DNA of 64,000 bases, from the NCBI GenBank assembly GCA_037355855.1, contig CM074765.1, positions 1,488,001-1,552,000 of the forward strand, in the 5' to 3' direction. The notes under the pieces are model-generated. The model was given only the letters and a program-made list of their open reading frames with translations, was not told where the DNA came from and searched no databases. This document shows positions 2,917 through 62,700 of the stretch, piece by piece; within the stretch, counting starts at the first letter, position 1; each line of letters begins with the position of its first letter. The position numbers were made by a program, and so were the translations under genes. The stretch comes from Pseudo-nitzschia pungens (taxonomy: Eukaryota; Bacillariophyta; Bacillariophyceae; Bacillariales; Bacillariaceae).

Positions 2917-2921
2917 CTAGT

Positions 2922-3178
2922 TGTTGAATTCAGCAGGAAATCTACGAAAACCTTAAAGAGCACAATTAACTCTGTTGGTTAGATACAAGTAATTAAACTA
3001 TGAGTATGCCGAATGGTTGTGGTGCCTGGATTTTATGGTCAGAACATGGTTGGTTGGTATGAGCTGGTCCCTGATCTGAGTCATTATCCATCGATGTTCT
3101 GTCATTGTTATCATACCATCCATACCTATACATATGCCTACGTGACTACTAATGTCCATTTCGGGCACATCTCCAACA
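2922..3178 (-). repeat. 3' LTR of the copia element
   Basis: This 257-bp direct repeat appears identical base for base to 8743-8999. On the element strand it begins TGTTGGAGATG and ends GAATTCAACA, with 5-bp inverted ends TGTTG/CAACA. Because the element reads leftward, this copy is the 3' LTR. CTAGT abuts it on the left. Confidence 0.95.
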
Positions 3179-3224
3179 CACTCCTGCTGCTCGTGGGCAT
3201 ATATCATATACCCGCGAACTGTAT

Positions 3225-6218
3225 TCATTGATTTGCCTTTCTTTTGGCATATTCCTCTTGGTATGAGATATATTCTGCCTCGCTAATTCCCATGATTGTG
3301 TTCCTAAATCTTCTGAACAGGGATCCCTGTAAGGGTTTGGTAAAGTAATCCGCCAACATCTCCCCTGTCGGGCAGTACTGGATTGATATCTCCCCTTTCT
3401 TAACCCGGTCGGTTATCAAGAAGTAACGTATGTTGATGTGGCGTGTTCGTTTGGTACTGGATGATTTGCCATTCATCTCCAGTTTCATGGCACTTGTGTT
3501 ATCCTGATTAAGGATGTTCTGTTTGCCTAAATATTGCCTGCCAGTGCCACCATGGTCGGGTGTGTTCTCCTCCGTCTGCGCCGCGTATCCCTGCCACTCA
3601 AGATAGTAACGGCACCACAGGTTGTATGGTAGTGTGTCATCGACACCAACGAGCTCTGCCTCGGTTGAACTCTTGGTGTTTAACTTTTGTTTTGTGGACA
3701 CGGCGAGCACTGCCCCCTGTCCAAACGTGAGCATACCCCCTGTGTGACTCTTCATGTCTGAGTGCACTGCAAAAGACGCATCAACGTACCAATAGGCATT
3801 GCCAGTGCTGTCCCACCCCAACACTAACGGTAGGAAGATTGTATCACGCACATACCCCATCACACGCCGGAGTTTCTTCCAATCGTCCTTGTCTGGGCTA
3901 GCCACACGGGTGCAGAGAAACGCAATTGCTGTTTGGATATCAGGGCGTGCTCTCTTGCTGGCAAAAAGTAGTTGAGCAACGTGCTTGTGGAAAGTCTCGG
4001 CGCTGTCGCGTTCAAGTTTCTCTCCATCTGGATTCGTCTTGAACAGGTGGTCTGACGCCGGTGTAGGGATAACTCTCTTCTCACATAACTCGGGCGGTAG
4101 CTCGCTCATAATCCCTTCAAGATAGTCAAACATGCTGAACTTTACCCTGCCTTCTTCACTGTAGTCAATGGTCATGCCGACATAATCGTGTATCTTTCCA
4201 CGTGTTACTGTCAGGGGTGACTCGATGCCGAACACCTTGTTGAGATCATCCAAAACTGCTGTTACCACTTCGGGGTCCTTGTGGGAGATCTTCAGGTCAT
4301 CCACATGCCAGACAATGGTGCACTGCTTCCCATTGATCATCTTGTTGGCAGTACATGTGTCGTACGGGTTCAGTTCGAATCCCCACTCCATTAGCTGTCC
4401 TGAGAGACGCTCCCAGAACAGAAGGGCTGCTCTGAGGGTTCCATATATGGCCTTGTCGGCTTGTGTGTAGAGCACTTTGTGTCCCTTCCGGTTCAGCATG
4501 TGCTTCCTGTACACCTCGGGGTCAATTCTGGCCAATAGTTCAGCCATCGGCCCATCAAAGCGTATATGGACCACCTCTCCCTCTGGCATTGGTGTTTGTA
4601 GAAAAGCTCCTGGGATGTCTGCTGTGGCTACGTCTCTCCCTTCTATTGCGTCGATTAGGCAGGTCAACATCAGGCCGTGCAGGGACACTGTTGGAGAGTA
4701 AGTGTCCTCCCGGGAAATAAAATCTCGTTGTGTCCGCCCGTCGGCGCATCCTCTAGCTTTGATCTTCCCACACCTTTTGCGCTTTAAGAACATGAGATAT
4801 GGGAGAGCACGCTTGATCTCCTCCCGTGTCAGGTCCCTGATGTTGACCGGGTGGACAACCTTGCGCTCATGTAGTTGCTTCAGTTCTGTCAGCACTGCCT
4901 CCACGCCAGCAGTGCCAAATAACTTCAGCCCAGCCTTCACTCCGTACTGTTTAGTGACGAGTGAGGCGTCGATGTTGTTGTAGGATGCAATCGCGTTCGA
5001 GATGAAGACATAATGCGCGTGCTGGTCCTCCAGGCGCTTTACGGCACAGCCCAGCCCTCCGGTGAATATGTTCGAGTGGTGCGACACGTGTACACGGTGG
5101 TGTATGTTTGACTCGAAGCCATCGTCGGAACCAAACTTGTTGTGTCCACGTGTTACTCTGGGTCTGAGAGTCATGCCTGTGACAACACTGCTGTCGTCCC
5201 TGTCGTTGCTAGCCATGGAGTCTGTTGTTGTATTACTGCTGTTGTATTCCGAAACATCCGGGTGATCGGGGCTGTCGGCCGCCTCGTCGCTCTGTTCACC
5301 GCGAGCTCGTCCAGTATGCATGTCACATGCATTGGTGTCATTTTCCTTCTCATTGTCATATTCGGCACGAGTATGCCCGCTCCCTTCGTCCACGCTGGAC
5401 GGCTCAACGGACGAGTCCTCGTCATCTATCGTGCTAGCGTCTTCGGTGCTTGGCTCATTTTCTGGATTGCTGACCTCATGCAACTCCCCCACAGCAGCTT
5501 CACCATGATCGTTGTCATCCTCCTCTGCGTGTGCCTCCTCGAGTTGTTCGTCACCTCCCGAGTCCTCCATGATGTCGGCCAGTTCTTCCTGGTCGATGGT
5601 CCCGGTAAGTTCAGTGGCAACGGTGGAGTCATCGTTATCGGGTGCGAATGAATGGTCTGAGGCGCCATCGTCAGAGCCAACGGTCTCTGTGTCCAGGTCC
5701 AGAATAGTTGTTATGCCATCCTTGTTCCCGAATGTAATACCTATAGGGCAGTTCTGTTCTGCTGCAATTTGTTCCACTCTGGAAATAACTGTGTCGGTCA
5801 TGTGTGCACCGGTTGCGGTCTGACGCCGGATACGCCGTCCGGTCTTCAGATCAAAGAGATACATTGCCCCGCTTCGGTCCCCAGTCGGGCGTAAGTATAT
5901 GGCGTCCCGGGCCCGTGGGGTCATCGTGTTGTCACTGGCGTCTTCATGTCCGAGTACGTAGTCCCCGAACTGAAACTTACAATGTTTGGCGGCGTCTAGG
6001 CGCACCCCGGTCATAAGCTGGCGTGGTGTTATTGTATCTGACACTCCTACTCTGTTGCACCAATTATTTAACCAAAAGATGGCGGCCGCCACCATATCGA
6101 TGACTACACGCCGGGGTAGGCGCTTGAAAGGCCACAGAGGCAAACAGGCATCGGATTCGTTCCTTGCAGGTTCGATTATCCCGTTCCACATATGGCTCGT
6201 GTTGGTTCCGGGCAACAC
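3225..6218 (-). CDS. copia integrase C-terminus, reverse transcriptase and RNase H
   Basis: This open frame runs 997 codons and continues the polyprotein in the +1 frame relative to the upstream ORF. Its nominal start is TTG, so it is not a separate gene; homologous reading begins near 6126 with KRLPRRVV. It carries the end of the integrase core (FWLNNW...SDTITPRQLMTG), an acidic linker of about 220 residues, a reverse transcriptase with DIPGAFLQT and VWHVDDLKIS (catalytic Asp, then VDD), and a copia RNase H (SHTGGMLTF, KSSTEAELVG). It stops 46 bp before the 3' LTR. Expression needs a +1 shift or repair, so this copy is probably not autonomous. Confidence 0.85.
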   Translation of the reverse strand: MLPGTNTSHMWNGIIEPARNESDACLPLWPFKRLPRRVVIDMVAAAIFWLNNWCNRVGVSDTITPRQLMTGVRLDAAKHCKFQFGDYVLGHEDASDNTMTPRARDAIYLRPTGDRSGAMYLFDLKTGRRIRRQTATGAHMTDTVISRVEQIAAEQNCPIGITFGNKDGITTILDLDTETVGSDDGASDHSFAPDNDDSTVATELTGTIDQEELADIMEDSGGDEQLEEAHAEEDDNDHGEAAVGELHEVSNPENEPSTEDASTIDDEDSSVEPSSVDEGSGHTRAEYDNEKENDTNACDMHTGRARGEQSDEAADSPDHPDVSEYNSSNTTTDSMASNDRDDSSVVTGMTLRPRVTRGHNKFGSDDGFESNIHHRVHVSHHSNIFTGGLGCAVKRLEDQHAHYVFISNAIASYNNIDASLVTKQYGVKAGLKLFGTAGVEAVLTELKQLHERKVVHPVNIRDLTREEIKRALPYLMFLKRKRCGKIKARGCADGRTQRDFISREDTYSPTVSLHGLMLTCLIDAIEGRDVATADIPGAFLQTPMPEGEVVHIRFDGPMAELLARIDPEVYRKHMLNRKGHKVLYTQADKAIYGTLRAALLFWERLSGQLMEWGFELNPYDTCTANKMINGKQCTIVWHVDDLKISHKDPEVVTAVLDDLNKVFGIESPLTVTRGKIHDYVGMTIDYSEEGRVKFSMFDYLEGIMSELPPELCEKRVIPTPASDHLFKTNPDGEKLERDSAETFHKHVAQLLFASKRARPDIQTAIAFLCTRVASPDKDDWKKLRRVMGYVRDTIFLPLVLGWDSTGNAYWYVDASFAVHSDMKSHTGGMLTFGQGAVLAVSTKQKLNTKSSTEAELVGVDDTLPYNLWCRYYLEWQGYAAQTEENTPDHGGTGRQYLGKQNILNQDNTSAMKLEMNGKSSSTKRTRHINIRYFLITDRVKKGEISIQYCPTGEMLADYFTKPLQGSLFRRFRNTIMGISEAEYISYQEEYAKRKANQ

Positions 6219-8625
6219 CCTCGAATCGCACCGGTGGGTTTCGGTTAAGTAAGTTGTCCGTTAGACAGTTGAACTCATTGTCGCCGGAAATGCAGGTGAT
6301 AGTAAATCCTCGCCCCGCGTATAGCCCGATGATTGCTCCGATACTCCTCTCCAATGTTGGTTGGGATGCGTCCTCGATCGCCGACACTGTACGGAAATAG
6401 AGGTGTCGGGATACGCTGCGGAAGAACTTGATTCCATTCACAGTAAAAATATCAATGCTAATCGTCACTTCCTTGTAGCGCTGCAGAATTTCCATTGGTA
6501 CTGGGGTGGTGTCCTCGCGCACGTGCCCAGGTTGTTGCCTGACGGACTTTCCTTTGATAATGTTGGTGTTGGCGCCAAAAATGTCTTCGGCGATGAGCAC
6601 ATCCCGTCTGGTGACTGGGCAGTTGTGCAGCACGTTGTTGTCCACAAGCTTCAGGAACTCCCCCCGGCTTGGGAACCCGAGGATCTCTTGTAGCTTTCGC
6701 GCCTTGGTTGCGCGGCGCACGTCAAGGTCGGAATACAACTTCTTTTGTCCTTCAACGGACGTGATGGCAAGCATTGTCCCATCGGTTTCCCTCAAGTCGC
6801 AATAGTATAATCCACTGTCTGCCCGGGTGAATCTCCGTGTGCTGCCATCCGGCTTGTGGACAAAGAATGACTGGGTGATTGCAGTGTCCAATGTGACCCG
6901 ATAGATGTCGGATACAAGACTGAGGGATAGGATGTTTGCCATTCCCCCTTCCTGGTACCACACGGTCCCGAATCCTGGCAAGTGCCCGACCTGGTCTACA
7001 ACGACCACTCCTGCGTTGCAGTGGATCCGAATCTTGTTACCTTTTGGGTGTTGGCGAATGTCCCGCAAGAGTCGTGGGTTGCTCACACAATTACAGGTGG
7101 CTTGGCTATCCAACAGCAACCAGTATGGGTCAATGTTGTTTGACCGGCCTTGTGAGAACATGTATTCCGAAGCCTCCCCAAGGTGGTGCACACCAGCGCG
7201 CGAGTCCGCACTCCTGGGCTTTTCGGTGGAAACATCAGGTAGGTTCTCCACACTCCTGGGCTTTTCGGTGGAAACATCAGGTAGGTTCTCTTCGTTGTGA
7301 TACTGGAGAAAACATAACTCGTCGTCGGTGTCTTCATCATCAATTGCTGCCATGAGGACTTGGGTGGCCTCCCGGATGGTTGGCCCGCCGCTTGTCTCGG
7401 TTGGTTCGTTCGGTTCGTCTGTCGAATCATCCGGTTCGTTGCCCGGGTCGTCAGAATCTACGTTGGGTCCGGTTTCGATGGCGTTGGATACAAGAGTGGT
7501 TCCTTCTGTAGTCTCACCCTGACCTTGTTTATCTCCCTTACCATTCTTGCCTTGTCCCTGGTTATCCTTGGATCTGGTCGACTTGTACTGATTTAGCAAT
7601 TCCAGTGCCTTGGGTTGAGTTGTAGGATATACATCGGCGCCAAGACTGTAATTGTCCTTGAGCACTCCTGAAAGATTCCGGTGCAACTTATTGTTGCTCC
7701 CATTGACGATGACTACCGATAACAACATTTCATTCATGATTAGGTGAACCTTGGATTTGTCCGCCTCCTCCATTGTTTGGTATTCTTCATATGTCTTTCC
7801 ATGAAATGACTTGTTCAGTGCAAGCTTGATCATCGCCTTGCTTCGAATGGTGATGCCGGCCGAGGTAAGTACATCAAAGCGTGCTTTGGTCTCCTCGGCG
7901 TACGTTGCTGCATCCTTGTTGCCATCCTGTTTGCAAGAAAAGAACTTGTAAATTTTATTTATGGCATCCACCATGGGGTGGACCTTTGTTGCGCTGTCTC
8001 GATAACAGTATTCACGGAGAATTGTGAGTAGTTGGAGAGTATCTTGGGCAGTTTCTATTTCATTCCATTGTTCACATGTCTTGAGGTGCTGTTTAACTCC
8101 AGGGCTGAGTTGTCCCTCGATGGTTGAGAACATGCTCTTAAGATCCTCGCAGTATGTTTCGAATTTTTTGGCTGACCGCTCCCCTTTTTTCACCCACAAT
8201 TCCTCGAGTAGGCGCTTCTTTGTTTCATCCACTGTTGTTGATCCATCTCCGGAGGTGATGGTGTATTGGCCGGCGTCAGGCATTGGTGGAAGAAAGTCTT
8301 CCTCTTTCAGCTTGGTGGCGTTTATGAGAGTTGTCTTGACCCTTGAGTTCTTTTTGCCGGCAACAATCTTCAGTCCCTCAAAGAGTTTGTCATATTGCGT
8401 TGACTTTGATCCATCAATGACGATCCCTTTTAGCTCATCTTGGTCCAATCCGGTGAATTTGCGGTCAGTGGTTGACCCGCTTCCTGTTATGTTGTTATTG
8501 CCTCGTCGGTTGCGGTTTCTTGGTCTCGTGTTGCTTGTGCTCTTCGTGTTGTCCGTGTTTTGAGAGTTCGCACCGGGGCTCTTTGTTTGTGTGTTTAGTT
8601 GTTCCATGCTGGAGGATGCCTTCAT
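6064..8625 (-). CDS. copia gag-protease-integrase (N-terminal part of the polyprotein)
   Basis: This 853-residue frame starts at ATG 8625, or at the in-frame ATG 8607. It opens with a low-complexity gag head and a gag-like helical region, and no clear CCHC knuckle is seen. A retropepsin-like site LLDSQATC follows near residue 500. Integrase follows with acidic residues in SIDIFTVNG, ISGDNEFN and EPYVERDNRT, matching D,D,E. A 42-bp tandem duplication at about 7209-7290 repeats the 14-residue block ENLPDVSTEKPRSV. After ASVAF the frame leaves the family pattern and stops at 6064, while the expected continuation KRLPRRVV lies in the +1 frame. The polyprotein is therefore broken by a 1-nt shift near 6126. 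Confidence 0.85.
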   Translation of the reverse strand: MKASSSMEQLNTQTKSPGANSQNTDNTKSTSNTRPRNRNRRGNNNITGSGSTTDRKFTGLDQDELKGIVIDGSKSTQYDKLFEGLKIVAGKKNSRVKTTLINATKLKEEDFLPPMPDAGQYTITSGDGSTTVDETKKRLLEELWVKKGERSAKKFETYCEDLKSMFSTIEGQLSPGVKQHLKTCEQWNEIETAQDTLQLLTILREYCYRDSATKVHPMVDAINKIYKFFSCKQDGNKDAATYAEETKARFDVLTSAGITIRSKAMIKLALNKSFHGKTYEEYQTMEEADKSKVHLIMNEMLLSVVIVNGSNNKLHRNLSGVLKDNYSLGADVYPTTQPKALELLNQYKSTRSKDNQGQGKNGKGDKQGQGETTEGTTLVSNAIETGPNVDSDDPGNEPDDSTDEPNEPTETSGGPTIREATQVLMAAIDDEDTDDELCFLQYHNEENLPDVSTEKPRSVENLPDVSTEKPRSADSRAGVHHLGEASEYMFSQGRSNNIDPYWLLLDSQATCNCVSNPRLLRDIRQHPKGNKIRIHCNAGVVVVDQVGHLPGFGTVWYQEGGMANILSLSLVSDIYRVTLDTAITQSFFVHKPDGSTRRFTRADSGLYYCDLRETDGTMLAITSVEGQKKLYSDLDVRRATKARKLQEILGFPSRGEFLKLVDNNVLHNCPVTRRDVLIAEDIFGANTNIIKGKSVRQQPGHVREDTTPVPMEILQRYKEVTISIDIFTVNGIKFFRSVSRHLYFRTVSAIEDASQPTLERSIGAIIGLYAGRGFTITCISGDNEFNCLTDNLLNRNPPVRFEGVARNQHEPYVERDNRTCKERIRCLFASVAFQAPTPACSHRYGGGRHLLVK

Positions 8626-8725
8626 CTACTGCTACAGCTGTATTACCGCTCGGAGGATCTCGATCGACTCGGCGTGCGATGGATCGAAACGCTATGGTGG
8701 TTCCGGTTGGAAATTATTCCACCGC

Positions 8726-8742
8726 TAGTTTAATTACTTGTA
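8726..8742 (-). promoter_or_regulatory. Putative self-complementary primer-binding site
   Basis: The 17 nt directly abutting the 5' LTR read TACAAGTAATTAAACTA on the element strand. They do not begin TGG, so they do not match a tRNA CCA end. They pair perfectly with LTR positions 8805-8821, where the transcript's 5' end is predicted. Pairing of the RNA 5' end here would put a primer 3' end flush with the LTR boundary, the geometry known for self-priming Tf1. The complementarity is seen directly; its function is inferred. Confidence 0.7.
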
Positions 8743-8999
8743 TGTTGAATTCAGCAGGAAATCTACGAAAACCTTAAAGAGCACAATTAACTCTGTTGGT
8801 TAGATACAAGTAATTAAACTATGAGTATGCCGAATGGTTGTGGTGCCTGGATTTTATGGTCAGAACATGGTTGGTTGGTATGAGCTGGTCCCTGATCTGA
8901 GTCATTATCCATCGATGTTCTGTCATTGTTATCATACCATCCATACCTATACATATGCCTACGTGACTACTAATGTCCATTTCGGGCACATCTCCAACA
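8743..8999 (-). repeat. 5' LTR of the copia element
   Basis: This is the upstream LTR in the element's reading direction. On the minus strand an ATAAAA box lies at 8857-8852. About 31 nt downstream, at 8821-8805, is TAGTTTAATTACTTGTA, the exact complement of the 17 nt immediately after the LTR. The box would place transcription start at or next to 8821. Confidence 0.93.
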
Positions 9000-9004
9000 C
9001 TAGT

Positions 9005-9456: not shown

Positions 9457-12205
9457 ATGAATGGTCGTTTGTGGCTGGTGGCGGGAACAGTTGCCTTTGG
9501 ATCTTTCCAAGGATTCCTGGTTTTGGTTGCGACCGCATCGTCAATCTCTGCGACAACGACAACGACAACGACAACGACGAAGACCATGACACACATCGAA
9601 TGCGGGGTATATTTGGCTCCATCGTCCATCCCGGGCGCAGGCCTCGGCATGTACAATGGGAACAGGACCCTTGCGAAGGATGCAATGGTGACGGACGAAG
9701 ACATTCTGATCCCCATTGTCGAACGACCGTGGCATTCCCAAATGCGTTTGAAGGACAAGAAATTTTTGTGGGACGAGTACATTTGGAATTCCGACACCTT
9801 TCCCTTCACGGCCGCGGAAATCGGCGAGGATTTGATGGGGGACATGACGATTGCTTCCCCCGGGGTCGGATCCGCCGCCAATTCCTACATCAGCATGGTC
9901 AACGTCGCGGACGATCCCATTCGAATCGGTCGGGAATCTTTGCCCAGGGACTCTCCCGGTCATGGTGCCTTTACGATCTATCACGGTCGTTCGTTTCGCG
10001 CCGCGGACGCCATCGAACCGGGCCAGGAACTGTTTGTCAAGTGAGTCGAGTTTTGTTGTTGTTGCACGAGATCCGTTGCGATCCGATTGCAATCCGTCGG
10101 GCGGGCGGTCGAAAACCGCCCTAAGATTTTGGGACGGTCCTGTTTTTGTTTTTCTAACTTCTGGCGTTGCTTGTTCGTCATTGCATCGTTTTCAGTTACG
10201 GGGAAGAGTACTTTACGAGTCGTGAGCACATCGTAAGTCGCGACGAGCTTTCCCGATAACTAGGCTCTCATCTTTTTCCTTGGCTCTCACTTTCCGTCTA
10301 TTATTGCACACCACAAATCGCTTTCGAACCCCTCTGTTGCTCCCGAATGCAATTCCCCCCACCCCCGTGGATAAATATAAAATGCGGGCTTTCAATCATC
10401 GATTCGGATTCCTGTCATCACAATGCTTGGCGATGGTACAGTATGGATTCCTGCCCATGCCAGACGATTTCGAAATAACAGATCGAATGCTAAGAACAGC
10501 GCGGAACCTTTCGCTTTACAACAGCGGTATCTCGGCTGCAGAAGGGGAACTTACCACAGACGAGGATGACCGGGCAGCACGGAATGAGGTATGGGAGGAT
10601 TTGATCGCCCTGATGACGGACATTTCCGACAATGTTTATGAGAAAAGCTCTCGCATTTTGAATGCTATTCCTCCCGAACCATCCAGTGTCCAAGCCGTTC
10701 TGAAAGATGGCGGAACAGCCTGGCAGGATTACAATCGGTCCATTCGAGATTTGGAGTGGTTGGAAGAACGGGGGCAGTGTGCAGACAACATTGGCCCGGG
10801 GAAATCCACGATTCCGGATGCGGCCCGGGGGGCCTTTGCAACCCGATTCATTCCCGAGGGTGGGCTGGTGTCGCCCGCTCCGCTGGTGCACATCGGTGAC
10901 CTCGACACGATGGCAATGTTTATGGAACACGTTTACAACAAGTGGGACGTGCTGGTGCCCAATCGACACGGAATCTACACCTGGCAGCTCATGATCAATT
11001 ACTGCTTTGCCCACGAGCAGTCGACATTGTTGCTTTGTCCCTACGGCCTGTTGTCGTCTCTCATAAATCATTCGTCGGGAGAAGGGGCAAACACTCGGAT
11101 CCAATGGAGCGAGGGACGCCACATGCGGCATCCGGAGTGGCGACAATATCCGGTCGACCAATGGTCCGATGAAAATCATGCGGGGTTGCAATTCGACTTT
11201 GTTGCCACACGGGATATTGCAGAGGGGGAAGAAATATTCATCGATTATGGTTCCCGATGGCAAGACGCCTGGGACAAACACGTCGACACGTTCCGATTCG
11301 AAGAGCATCGATCCGACCGGTATCGACCCGCGTACGAACTCAATGAACTGCTCCTTCGAGACGAAAATGGTGTATCTTTTGAACTGCGAAGCGAGGACGA
11401 TCGGGATTATCGTCTGGATGGAGTTCAGTTGTACTGCCGGGGCTGGTACATTGCAGAATTCCGGGGGGCAAGGAGGAAGCGATGGAAAGAGAAAAACCCA
11501 ATGTGCGGCATCGTTCGAAAACTCGCGGAGGATTCCTACCTGGTCCGAATCATCGATTGGAAGGACCGCGCAAAACGGCGCTTTACGAAATACCACGAGG
11601 AAGAAGACCTGGTCTGGGGGCTTCCCCGAGCGGCTTTCTTTTTCGACGACTTGCCCTATTTCCGTGACATTCACCAGGAATGGGCCTTTCGCCATCCCAT
11701 GATGATCCCCGACGATGTGTTTCCGGAAATCTGGAAAAATGCGAATTACGAAGGCGGCCGTGCCTTTTTGGAATTCGTCGCGGATTCCACGGAGGGCCAG
11801 GAGAAGAATGAAAAAATGGAGAGCAGATGGATCGAGATGGAGGAAACACAGGACGAAGAAGATGACGAAGAAGAAAATGACGAAGAATATTACGACGAAG
11901 AATACGAGGAGGACGGGGACGATGACGAAGAAGATAATGACGATTATTATTACGACGAAGAATACGAGGAGGACGGGGACGAGGACGATGATGAAGAACA
12001 CGATGACGAAGACGGGAACTTTGACAACAATTATCGGGAGGTAGGGGAAGATGAAGAGATCGATCACAATTATGATGACGATGACGATGACAATGATGAT
12101 GATGAGGAGGAGGAGGAGGAGGAGGAGGAACCGGAGGATGAGTATGAGTATGATGATAATGATGATGATGACAACGAGGAAGACGAAGACAATGATGGCG
12201 ATTGA
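9457..12205 (+). CDS. Signal-peptide protein with two SET-like domains and an acidic tail
   Basis: Three exons, 9457-10040, 10196-10232 and 10442-12205, give 794 residues. The junctions are GTGAGT...TTTTCAG and GTAAGT...GGTACAG, both in frame. A hydrophobic N-terminus (residues about 5-28) looks like a signal peptide, followed by a poly-Thr run. Residues about 48-207 form a SET-like domain (AFTIYHGRSF...GQELFVNYG) without an NHS motif. Residues about 327-480 form a second one, with LINHS and GEEIFIDYG, the AdoMet and catalytic motifs of SET methyltransferases. From about residue 670 the protein is almost pure Asp/Glu with Tyr and Asn. A methyltransferase entering the secretory pathway is unusual; substrate is unknown. 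The second domain looks competent and the first degenerate. Confidence 0.8.
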
Positions 12206-13024
12206 GACGGGGAAAAAATTGGGAACAGCAAGGGAAAACACTGTGAGGGATGCCGCCAAAAATTGCAATGATCGACTTCGTGTTTCTATTCGTTCTTCAA
12301 TCTGTGGTGTTGTGACCGTGTCGAGTGCTAGTATTTCGATTGGGGCAGCAGCAGTTGGATATGGATATGGATACCGTACCGTACCGCAAATATTCTCGAG
12401 TCAAAATGAATTCAATGATGGATTATAATCATTCCGCAAGTCATGCTATAATATTATTTTTAATAAATACTATTTATTATATTATACAATAACAAAAGAC
12501 ATCATCCTATCTATCTATTGCTTTCTGTCGCAGTGTTGTTGATCGCCAAACATTTGCGTCATGCGAATGGGACTGCCGAATGAATCATCCCGGCCTTTCT
12601 TTTATTAAAACATGTCCTCCATCGAGAAGCCATGCATCGCGTGCAAGCGCCGGGTCGATGCCGATGGCAGTGCGTCGAACCACGGTTGTGTTTGGCGGAA
12701 CCAATCGTCTCCTTTCTTTTTTTTCCTTTTTTTAATAAAAAAAAATTCCGCTCACCAACGCGTGCCGTGCCAATATCCACCCACGCAAACCACCATAGCG
12801 TCCACTCGCTCACCCAAGCAATTTGCAGTATTCTTTCACCGGGACGCAACGATTGCGACACACGCAGCGCGGGAAAGCGATTCGCGGTTGGATTTGATCG
12901 AGTCCGTCCGTTTGTTTGGGTCGACTCGACGAACACGGACCGCCGCAGCCTCGATCGGTCCGTCGACGCGAGTCTCTCTCTCACGCGCTCTCTCACGCGC
13001 TCTCTCACGCGCTCTCTCTAACTC
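12206..13024. other. Tail-to-tail spacer between the SET and CSN1 genes
   Basis: No gene is seen. The spacer holds the two 3' UTRs, an AT-rich stretch near 12450-12490 suited to poly(A) sites, and a CTCTCTCACGCG minisatellite at about 12975-13020 against the CSN1 stop. Confidence 0.6.
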
Positions 13025-61118: not shown

Positions 61119-62700
61119 TTAAGAAATCAAGTCATTTGCAGTAGCACTTGGGACCAACCCATAAGAGAAGAACCCTTTCGTCTTGCTCAGAAAAGTGTTC
61201 AGAATGGTATTAGCCTGTACCTTGCTGGTTTGAAAGTTGTAGAGGAGAACCATAAGGTGAATGATGATCTTCCTCTCTCCAAGCTCTTCTAGAAAAAGTG
61301 GGTCCTTGAGCCGGGGGAAGCCTCCTTGGATCTGTCTCATCCCCCACTCAGAGAGTTGGCAAATGCTAGTTGCCGCTCGATTGAGTACAACTCCTTCTTG
61401 ACTTGGTGGGTCCGACTGACTGCTTTTGATTAGGAAGTCTTTTTTCTCTCAAATTAAAGGCAGAGTTCACAACAACCTTAGCCCCATAGAGGTCATACAT
61501 CTGTTCCATCTTGTTGTATATGCCGTAGTCAGCCTGAGTACTATCATGCCAACATCCTGGAGCATTCAAAAAACGCACGCCCGGATCCTTCCATCCGGAG
61601 CAAAAAGGAGAACAGAGTTGATGTAAGTGCGGAGAACAGAGTTGATGTAAGTGGCAGAAGTCCATCCATTGTAGGACTTGTTCTGTTTTGTCCAGTTTCC
61701 AGACTTCTGCAAATGGAGTTTAAGCCCATCACAAGCAGCCCAGACTTGGTGTTGACATAAGACAGGATACTTTGAAGCAAGAGCTGCAATGTAGGCAACT
61801 TTACAACAGCAACAGGAACATTATGGAAAAAAGACTTTTCTGGAAAATTTCCATTTTCATGGGCGCGACTACTCTCAAAAAAATCTTAGGGCAATAACGG
61901 CTCTTCTATATTTTTAATAATTAAAGAAGAGCGACGACCATAATTTAACGGTCTTCAACCGTCATCTTTGTCCTCAAAAAACGATTGTCCTCAAAACGTG
62001 TCCTCAACGATTTTGTCCTCAACAGACTGTCCTCAACCATTTTGTCCTCAACAATTATGTCCTCAACGTTTTGTCCTCAACCTCAATGTTGAAGTCATAG
62101 AGGTTGAGGACAAAACGTTGAGGACATAATTGTTGAGGACAAAATGGTTGAGGACAAAATGGTTGAGGACAGTCTGTTGAGGACAAAATCGTTGAGGACA
62201 CGTTTTGAGGACAGTTTTGAGGACAGTTTTGAGGACAGTTTTGAGGACACTCTAAATACTCGTACATCCAGCCGTTAAAGTGTATATTTAACAAAAAACA
62301 GCCGTTAAAAATTACATCGTTAAAAATTACATCAATTTTACGCGCATGAATATAGAAATTTTTCTCAAAAAAAACTTTTTTCCATAATGTTCCAGGATTA
62401 GTTTGCAGAGCACAAAGCAGGAGCCTACGAGAGAACTTGAGCCATTTGTACATGGGAGTTGATGTTAGTAATCCAAACGCCATTCTCAATCCCCTTGCCA
62501 TGGATCCACAAGTCCTGAACCCAAACAAGACAAGTCCGAGTGCTCCTACTGTATTGAAGTCTCTTTTTCTCCCACTGTTCTGTCTCTTAAACTTCTGAAT
62601 GGATCCTTCAGTAACATCATAGGTATACTGATCATAGAGGGGAGCAAAGACACCAGGCAACTCTCTGAATCCAAGGTGATTCACACCACAGCAGTTTAGA
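61119..62700 (-). pseudogene. PIF/Harbinger-type transposase, frameshifted and interrupted
   Basis: On the minus strand, pieces in order are: GVNHLGFRELPGVFAPLYD...FGFRTCGSMARGLRMAFGLL...LLLCALQTNP (62690-62394); a 579-bp insertion (61815-62393); then KVAYIAALASKYPVLC...WAACDGLKLHLQKSGNW...NGWTSATYINSVL. After a frame change come FLNAPGCWHDSTQADYG and AKVVVNSAFN, and finally RQIQGGFPRLKDPLFLEELGERKI. The ACDG, GCWHDS and later blocks match the DDE_4 nuclease layout. A 24-bp tandem duplication (61615-61660) doubles TYINSVL. Several frame breaks and an in-frame stop make this a pseudogene. Excising the insertion exactly restores frame at ALQTNP...KVAYIA. Confidence 0.75.
61815..62393. mobile_element. 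579-bp non-autonomous insertion with 19-bp ends and a central hairpin
   Basis: Perfect inverted ends GGAACATTATGGAAAAAAG lie at 61815-61833 and, reversed, at 62375-62393. It has no ORF. The centre is a near-perfect hairpin (arms 61986-62084 and 62100-62213, loop about 15 nt) built of repeated TTGAGGACA units every 11-15 bp; the right arm has one extra 15-bp unit. Flanks are GCAACA and AGGATT with no visible target duplication. It interrupts the Harbinger-like transposase, so it inserted later. Confidence 0.75.

Follow-up and report, generated by a model that had tools for sequence, protein, structure and literature searches.

Copia-type retrotransposons of the diatom Pseudo-nitzschia pungens whose primer-binding site is complementary to their own long terminal repeat: a candidate self-priming clade

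The long terminal repeat (LTR) retrotransposon Tf1 obtains the primer of its reverse transcription by cleavage of the 5′ end of its own RNA, and this primer is 11 nucleotides (nt) long. The Tf1 primer-binding site (PBS) is complementary to the first nucleotides of that RNA, and no tRNA is needed (PMC5445492). Within the Ty1/copia class, self-priming has been predicted for the plant TAR clade (Houba, Osr-1), in which the PBS is complementary to the 5′ LTR; the prediction was made with blastn and matches of at least 10 bp (PMC6317226). Here we describe an LTR retrotransposon of the copia type, located at positions 2922-8999 (minus strand) of a 64-kb window of P. pungens (64,000 nt of contig CM074765.1, positions 1,488,001 to 1,552,000, assembly GCA_037355855.1; all coordinates below are those of this window), whose PBS is an exact complement of a segment of its own LTR. 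Judging from sequence comparisons, this element is very probably a member of a self-priming copia-class clade, in which reverse transcription is initiated in a Tf1-like manner, the 5′ end of the RNA being cut after about nt 17.

As in Tf1 and sushi elements, which belong to the Ty3/gypsy class (Metaviridae), the PBS of the diatom clade is complementary to a segment of its own LTR and flush with the LTR. Unlike theirs, its reverse transcriptase (RT) is of the copia type (RVT_2), and its primers are 14-17 nt long, compared to 11 in Tf1. The TAR elements, compared here by description only, are alike in their copia class and in the complementarity of the PBS to the 5′ LTR; they differ in being found in land plants, and in the account of them in PMC6317226 the prediction comes without covariation. 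A previous examination of the window from its letters alone (hereafter the sequence-only reading) had started from the premise that copia elements use tRNA or half-tRNA primers only, which is incomplete in view of the TAR prediction (PMC6317226). Fungal GalEa elements, also of the copia class, are described as having a hairpin or palindrome at the LTR border and no tRNA PBS; their authors detected no complement of this site in the unique 5′ region (U5), whereas the diatom clade has a complement in the LTR (PMC5445492). A self-priming ancestor has been raised as a hypothesis (PMC3601003). The CoDi copia elements known from diatoms include 3 families, out of 26, whose ends are not TG/CA, as in one self-priming subclade below; this comparison too is by description only (PMC2806351). 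The main text of that paper, supplements not covered, contains neither “tRNA” nor “self-prim”, and “PBS” appears there only as a buffer. Our literature searches, judged by title and abstract opening and not proof of absence, found no report of copia self-priming in diatoms.

Complementarity between the PBS and the LTR

The PBS (8726..8742, minus strand) lies flush with the 5′ LTR and reads TACAAGTAATTAAACTA on minus strand 8742-8726. It is the exact reverse complement of TAGTTTAATTACTTGTA, found inside the LTR on minus strand 8821-8805, and the last LTR base (8743, A) lengthens the pairing to 18. The LTR segment (8805..8821) is predicted to be nt 1-17 of the element RNA. The sequence-only reading had described this match, and its description is correct to the base. 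It had also called the match very improbable by chance, an opinion that the numbers bear out: given the base composition, the probability that the window LTR contains a perfect complement of 17 nt at any position is about 6.6×10−8, and when 5,546 internal 17-mers were compared to the LTR, the longest pairing not overlapping the PBS site was 10 nt. A chance match was rejected on these two grounds.

For the 102-nt RNA encompassing both arms, the predicted fold is closed by a stem of 18 bp and has an energy of −29.2 kcal/mol (z −4.4). Between the arms lie 62 nt, the remainder of the repeat region (R) and U5 (8743..8804, minus strand), which are strongly conserved among close copies and would be the template of the minus-strand strong-stop DNA. 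RNAalifold predicts an inner U5 hairpin, nearly invariant among copies, in this part.

Covariation of the two arms among relatives

Close relatives were collected by searching the 66.9-Mb assembly with a 110-nt R-U5-PBS probe. At least 40 places were scored, and the 26 whose match reached the PBS, window copy included, were kept. The primer and PBS arms pair at 17 of 17 positions in 22 of these copies, and at 16 of 17 in the other 4. Six pairs have undergone compensatory changes on both sides, some of them transversions, a number reached in none of 500 shuffles. For the 18 distinct rows derived from the 26 copies, 99.7% of the cells are paired, compared to 92.1% after shuffling (0/500 as high), and the covariation score is 0.212 versus 0.065 (0/500 as high). 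Shifting the partners by 1-3 columns leaves only 31-42% paired.

Because the probe used for the close copies holds both arms, more distant relatives were chosen by RT similarity instead: 19 copies were taken from 70 such places, long open frames being favoured. Seventeen of the 19 (RT 47-82% identity) carry their own primer/PBS pair of 14-17 nt at the same site, with arms 60-82 nt apart. Each of the first 9 copies (48-82% identity over the matched query) has a PBS of 14-17 nt that pairs with a segment of its own LTR, and a pair was present in 8 of the next 10, which are short stretches (47-76%). In the two remaining copies this site is rearranged: the 5′ LTR of L129 has been replaced, and L131 has lost its U5 and PBS. 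The primer of the 82% family (L075) is one base off that of the window copy, and those of other families are very different, for example CACTTTTTATTTTAATA or ATACTTTTCTCTTTTA. The arms of these 17 copies were located as perfect inverted repeats, so that single mismatches are uncounted there. LTR ends of the first 9 were set by comparison of the 5′ and 3′ LTRs in 7 cases, L081 having a partial 3′ match and L085 no 3′ stretch; visual inspection of the 7 LTR pairs compared revealed target-site duplications (TSDs) in 6. One self-priming subclade (L086, L088, L090) has LTRs that begin with TGTTG and end with AAGA, with TSDs GTTAG, ATCCC and AAGAT, and even there the PBS abuts the LTR directly. Compensatory changes in relatives, which the sequence-only reading had singled out as the thing to look for, are thus strongly borne out, in the 26 close copies and the 17 distant ones alike.

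These data bear on the possibility that the primer is a tRNA, a half-tRNA or another host RNA, the match with the LTR being secondary. Priming of the tRNA type is the norm in plant copia elements (PMC6317226). In the assembly, 19 exact occurrences of the 17-mer were counted, all of them inside LTR/PBS places of the family of the window element. This answers, for exact full-length matches, the proposal of the sequence-only reading that genomic tRNAs be compared to the PBS; shorter matches and organelle tRNAs, the latter possibly outside the assembly, were not searched. As each family has its own primer/PBS pair, a shared tRNA primer cannot explain the PBSs, which vary among families and yet match their own LTRs. 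The covariation likewise speaks against a host RNA, unless every family had its own. A tRNA primer was rejected on the basis of the distribution of exact 17-mer matches and of these family-specific matches, and we consider a host RNA of any kind extremely improbable.

Copies of other copia families served as a negative control. Of 14 such copies, 5 have clear LTR ends (L095, L096, L097, L099, L100), one has an unsure LTR end (L101), and for 8 the 5′ LTR lies outside the fetched stretch. None of the five copies with clear ends has a complement of the PBS site of 8 nt or more in its LTR; L101 has an 8-nt match. In all five, the palindrome TTCTTCGAAGAA sits directly after the LTR end ACA, which recalls the hairpin site of fungal GalEa. 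The 9 self-priming rows cluster with a support of 100/99 in an RT tree built from 24 rows, a grouping to be read with the warnings that long branches meet and that five rows are less than half filled. Over the fragments compared, RT identity to the window copy is 44-85% for self-priming rows and 22-26% for the other copia elements. Pattern-based scans of viral contigs found neither an RT relative nor a copy of the U5 motif.

Start of the RNA and the proposed priming mechanism

In diatoms, a promoter study describes the initiator (Inr) as CAY+1A or TCAH+1W (PMC4686930). The window copy has CTCA directly before the primer (8822..8825, minus strand), followed by T(+1)A, so that the published Inr sets +1 at 8821, the first base of the primer. 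The element RNA would then start at or next to 8821. When the looser form CAHW was sought in the 43-copy set (the 26 close and 17 distant copies, the two rearranged ones left out), 35 of the 43 copies had the Inr +1 exactly at the base where the complementarity begins, all 35 fitting a published form; in the upstream U3 region, CAHW is found at 74 of 1352 positions. The sequence-only reading had placed the RNA start with the help of an ATAAAA box. The box is indeed there (8852..8857, minus strand, by eye). An ATAAA at a distance of 20-45 nt upstream is found in just 4 of the 43 copies, so that it was rejected as a general support for the RNA start.

Under self-priming, transcription would start at or beside 8821, and nt 1-17 or 18 of the RNA would fold back onto the PBS at the LTR end, giving a hairpin closed over the 62 nt of R-U5. 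A cut by RNase H, or by another nuclease, after about nt 17 would leave a free 3′ end on A17, from which minus-strand synthesis could proceed into U5. Plus-strand DNA would later copy the attached primer, and a new PBS would in this way be templated by the RNA 5′ end at every cycle. Such a renewal of the PBS would keep the arms matched while their sequence drifts between families. Right after the PBS, copies L009-L074 have CGGT, CCGGT or GCGGT, with a variable extra base. As a speculation, this base may be an untemplated one at the RNA 5′ end, or may reflect a shifted start.

The same segment might also prime from another molecule, either a second RNA of the particle acting in trans or the R copy at the RNA 3′ end. 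The segment is present in both LTRs, and either copy could pair with the PBS. In the 35 copies just mentioned, the complementarity goes no further than the predicted 5′ end of the RNA, which fits copying from the 5′ end; nothing would make a 3′ copy stop at this point. We regard priming from another molecule as improbable, the argument from the 5′ end bearing on the 3′ copy and not on the 5′ end of a second RNA acting in trans.

Several points weigh against self-priming from the RNA 5′ end, or against the strength of its support. In each of the 4 close copies with an imperfect stem, a single pair departs from Watson-Crick (G-U in three copies, U-U in one), and one of the five covariation measures, the number of further pair types, is unremarkable (11 versus 9.2, 66/500 shuffles as high). 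The copies do not represent independent cases; the probe for the 26 close ones, containing both arms, leans towards matches. The negative control is a single copia group, its five copies forming two subfamilies of one tree group. Complementarity runs 1-4 nt beyond the Inr-predicted start in 7 of the 43 copies, and one copy has no Inr match. In oomycetes, which are stramenopiles too, the initiator YCAYTYY is described as starting at its A (PMC3599244), which would be 8822 here, one base off. Finally, covariation is evidence of pairing and not of priming: it would also be expected of a stem that serves another purpose.

This last point leads to the possibility that the stem formed by R and the PBS acts as a conserved hairpin of the leader, involved in packaging, dimerisation or translation, and that the minus strand starts elsewhere. 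The fungal GalEa elements give it some ground, with a hairpin in the place of the PBS whose role is described as unproved (PMC5445492). The pairing, however, recurs at the LTR/PBS border from one family to the next, the AAGA-ending subclade included, as a primer requires, and no other candidate PBS was noticed, though no search for one was made beyond the PBS site. A leader hairpin is in our opinion unlikely, if slightly less so than priming from another molecule. Self-priming from the RNA 5′ end, as proposed by the sequence-only reading, is supported by the covariation, the family-specific pairs, the distribution of the 17-mer and the position of the Inr, and remains by far the most probable explanation.

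Element structure, surroundings and implications

The 5′ LTR (8743..8999, minus strand) is 257 nt long, reads TGTTGG...CAACA and is 100% identical to the 3′ LTR (2922..3178, minus strand, 257 nt); the self-comparison match measures 258 nt as it includes one extra G. A TSD, ACTAG, was recognised by eye at 9000..9004 on the 5′ side and at 2917..2921 on the 3′ side. Direct LTRs bounded by TG and CA and a 5-bp TSD are features of copia-type LTR elements. Ahead of the 3′ LTR, GCAGCAGGAGTG (3179..3190, minus strand) resembles a polypurine tract and may act as one, and AGGAG directly precedes the 3′ LTR in all 7 self-priming LTR pairs examined.

The pol of the window copy is in two overlapping frames, both on the minus strand, whereas in several close relatives a single open frame spans about 1,790 amino acids (aa). 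The first part, a gag-pol frame of 853 aa (6064..8625), matches no Pfam family above its cut-off, integrase and gag included. In this frame, a 42-nt unit is duplicated in tandem at 7205-7288. The second part (3225..6218) contains the RT domain (4074..4775, coordinates converted by hand), matched by PF07727 (RVT_2, copia type) with 46.9 bits against a curated cut-off of 31.6, in agreement with the copia class given by the sequence-only reading. RVT_2 is the sole Pfam family found in this frame at E 0.001, and no gypsy-type RT was found there. RNase H was recognised by eye only, and no integrase model matched the 282 aa that follow the RT match in the frame.

Elsewhere in the window, positions 61986-62213 hold a near-perfect inverted repeat of TGTCCTCAAC / GTTGAGGACA units, with 82-nt arms that are 98% complementary, and a run of acidic codon repeats (11838-12224) ends a 641-aa frame. 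The genome as a whole gives 72 matches to the chlorophyll-binding family, several of which are fragments of a single gene; for the one examined, L124, the best match is the fucoxanthin chlorophyll protein FCPI-7 of the diatom structure 6ly5 (E 1.8e-90), as would be expected of a diatom.

In a diatom genome paper, LTR candidates were filtered by LTRdigest and those with a primer-binding site were kept (PMC7466962). If this filter relies on tRNA matches, self-priming elements would drop out of annotation. A broader view can be proposed, whose chances we judge evenly balanced: a deep and diverse copia clade, observed here in a single diatom genome, may have dispensed with tRNA primers entirely, and this separately from plant TAR and from Tf1/sushi, with a PBS rewritten at each cycle from the RNA 5′ end, so that genomic PBSs would record past RNA starts at one-base resolution and the primer would be free to drift.

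What was already known is the prediction for plant TAR; what is new is covariation evidence for self-priming across a diatom copia clade. Copia self-priming thereby moves from a prediction for a single plant clade to a case backed by compensatory changes that arose naturally in deeply split families, and the 14-17 nt primer/PBS pairs constitute a natural series for studying how such priming evolves.
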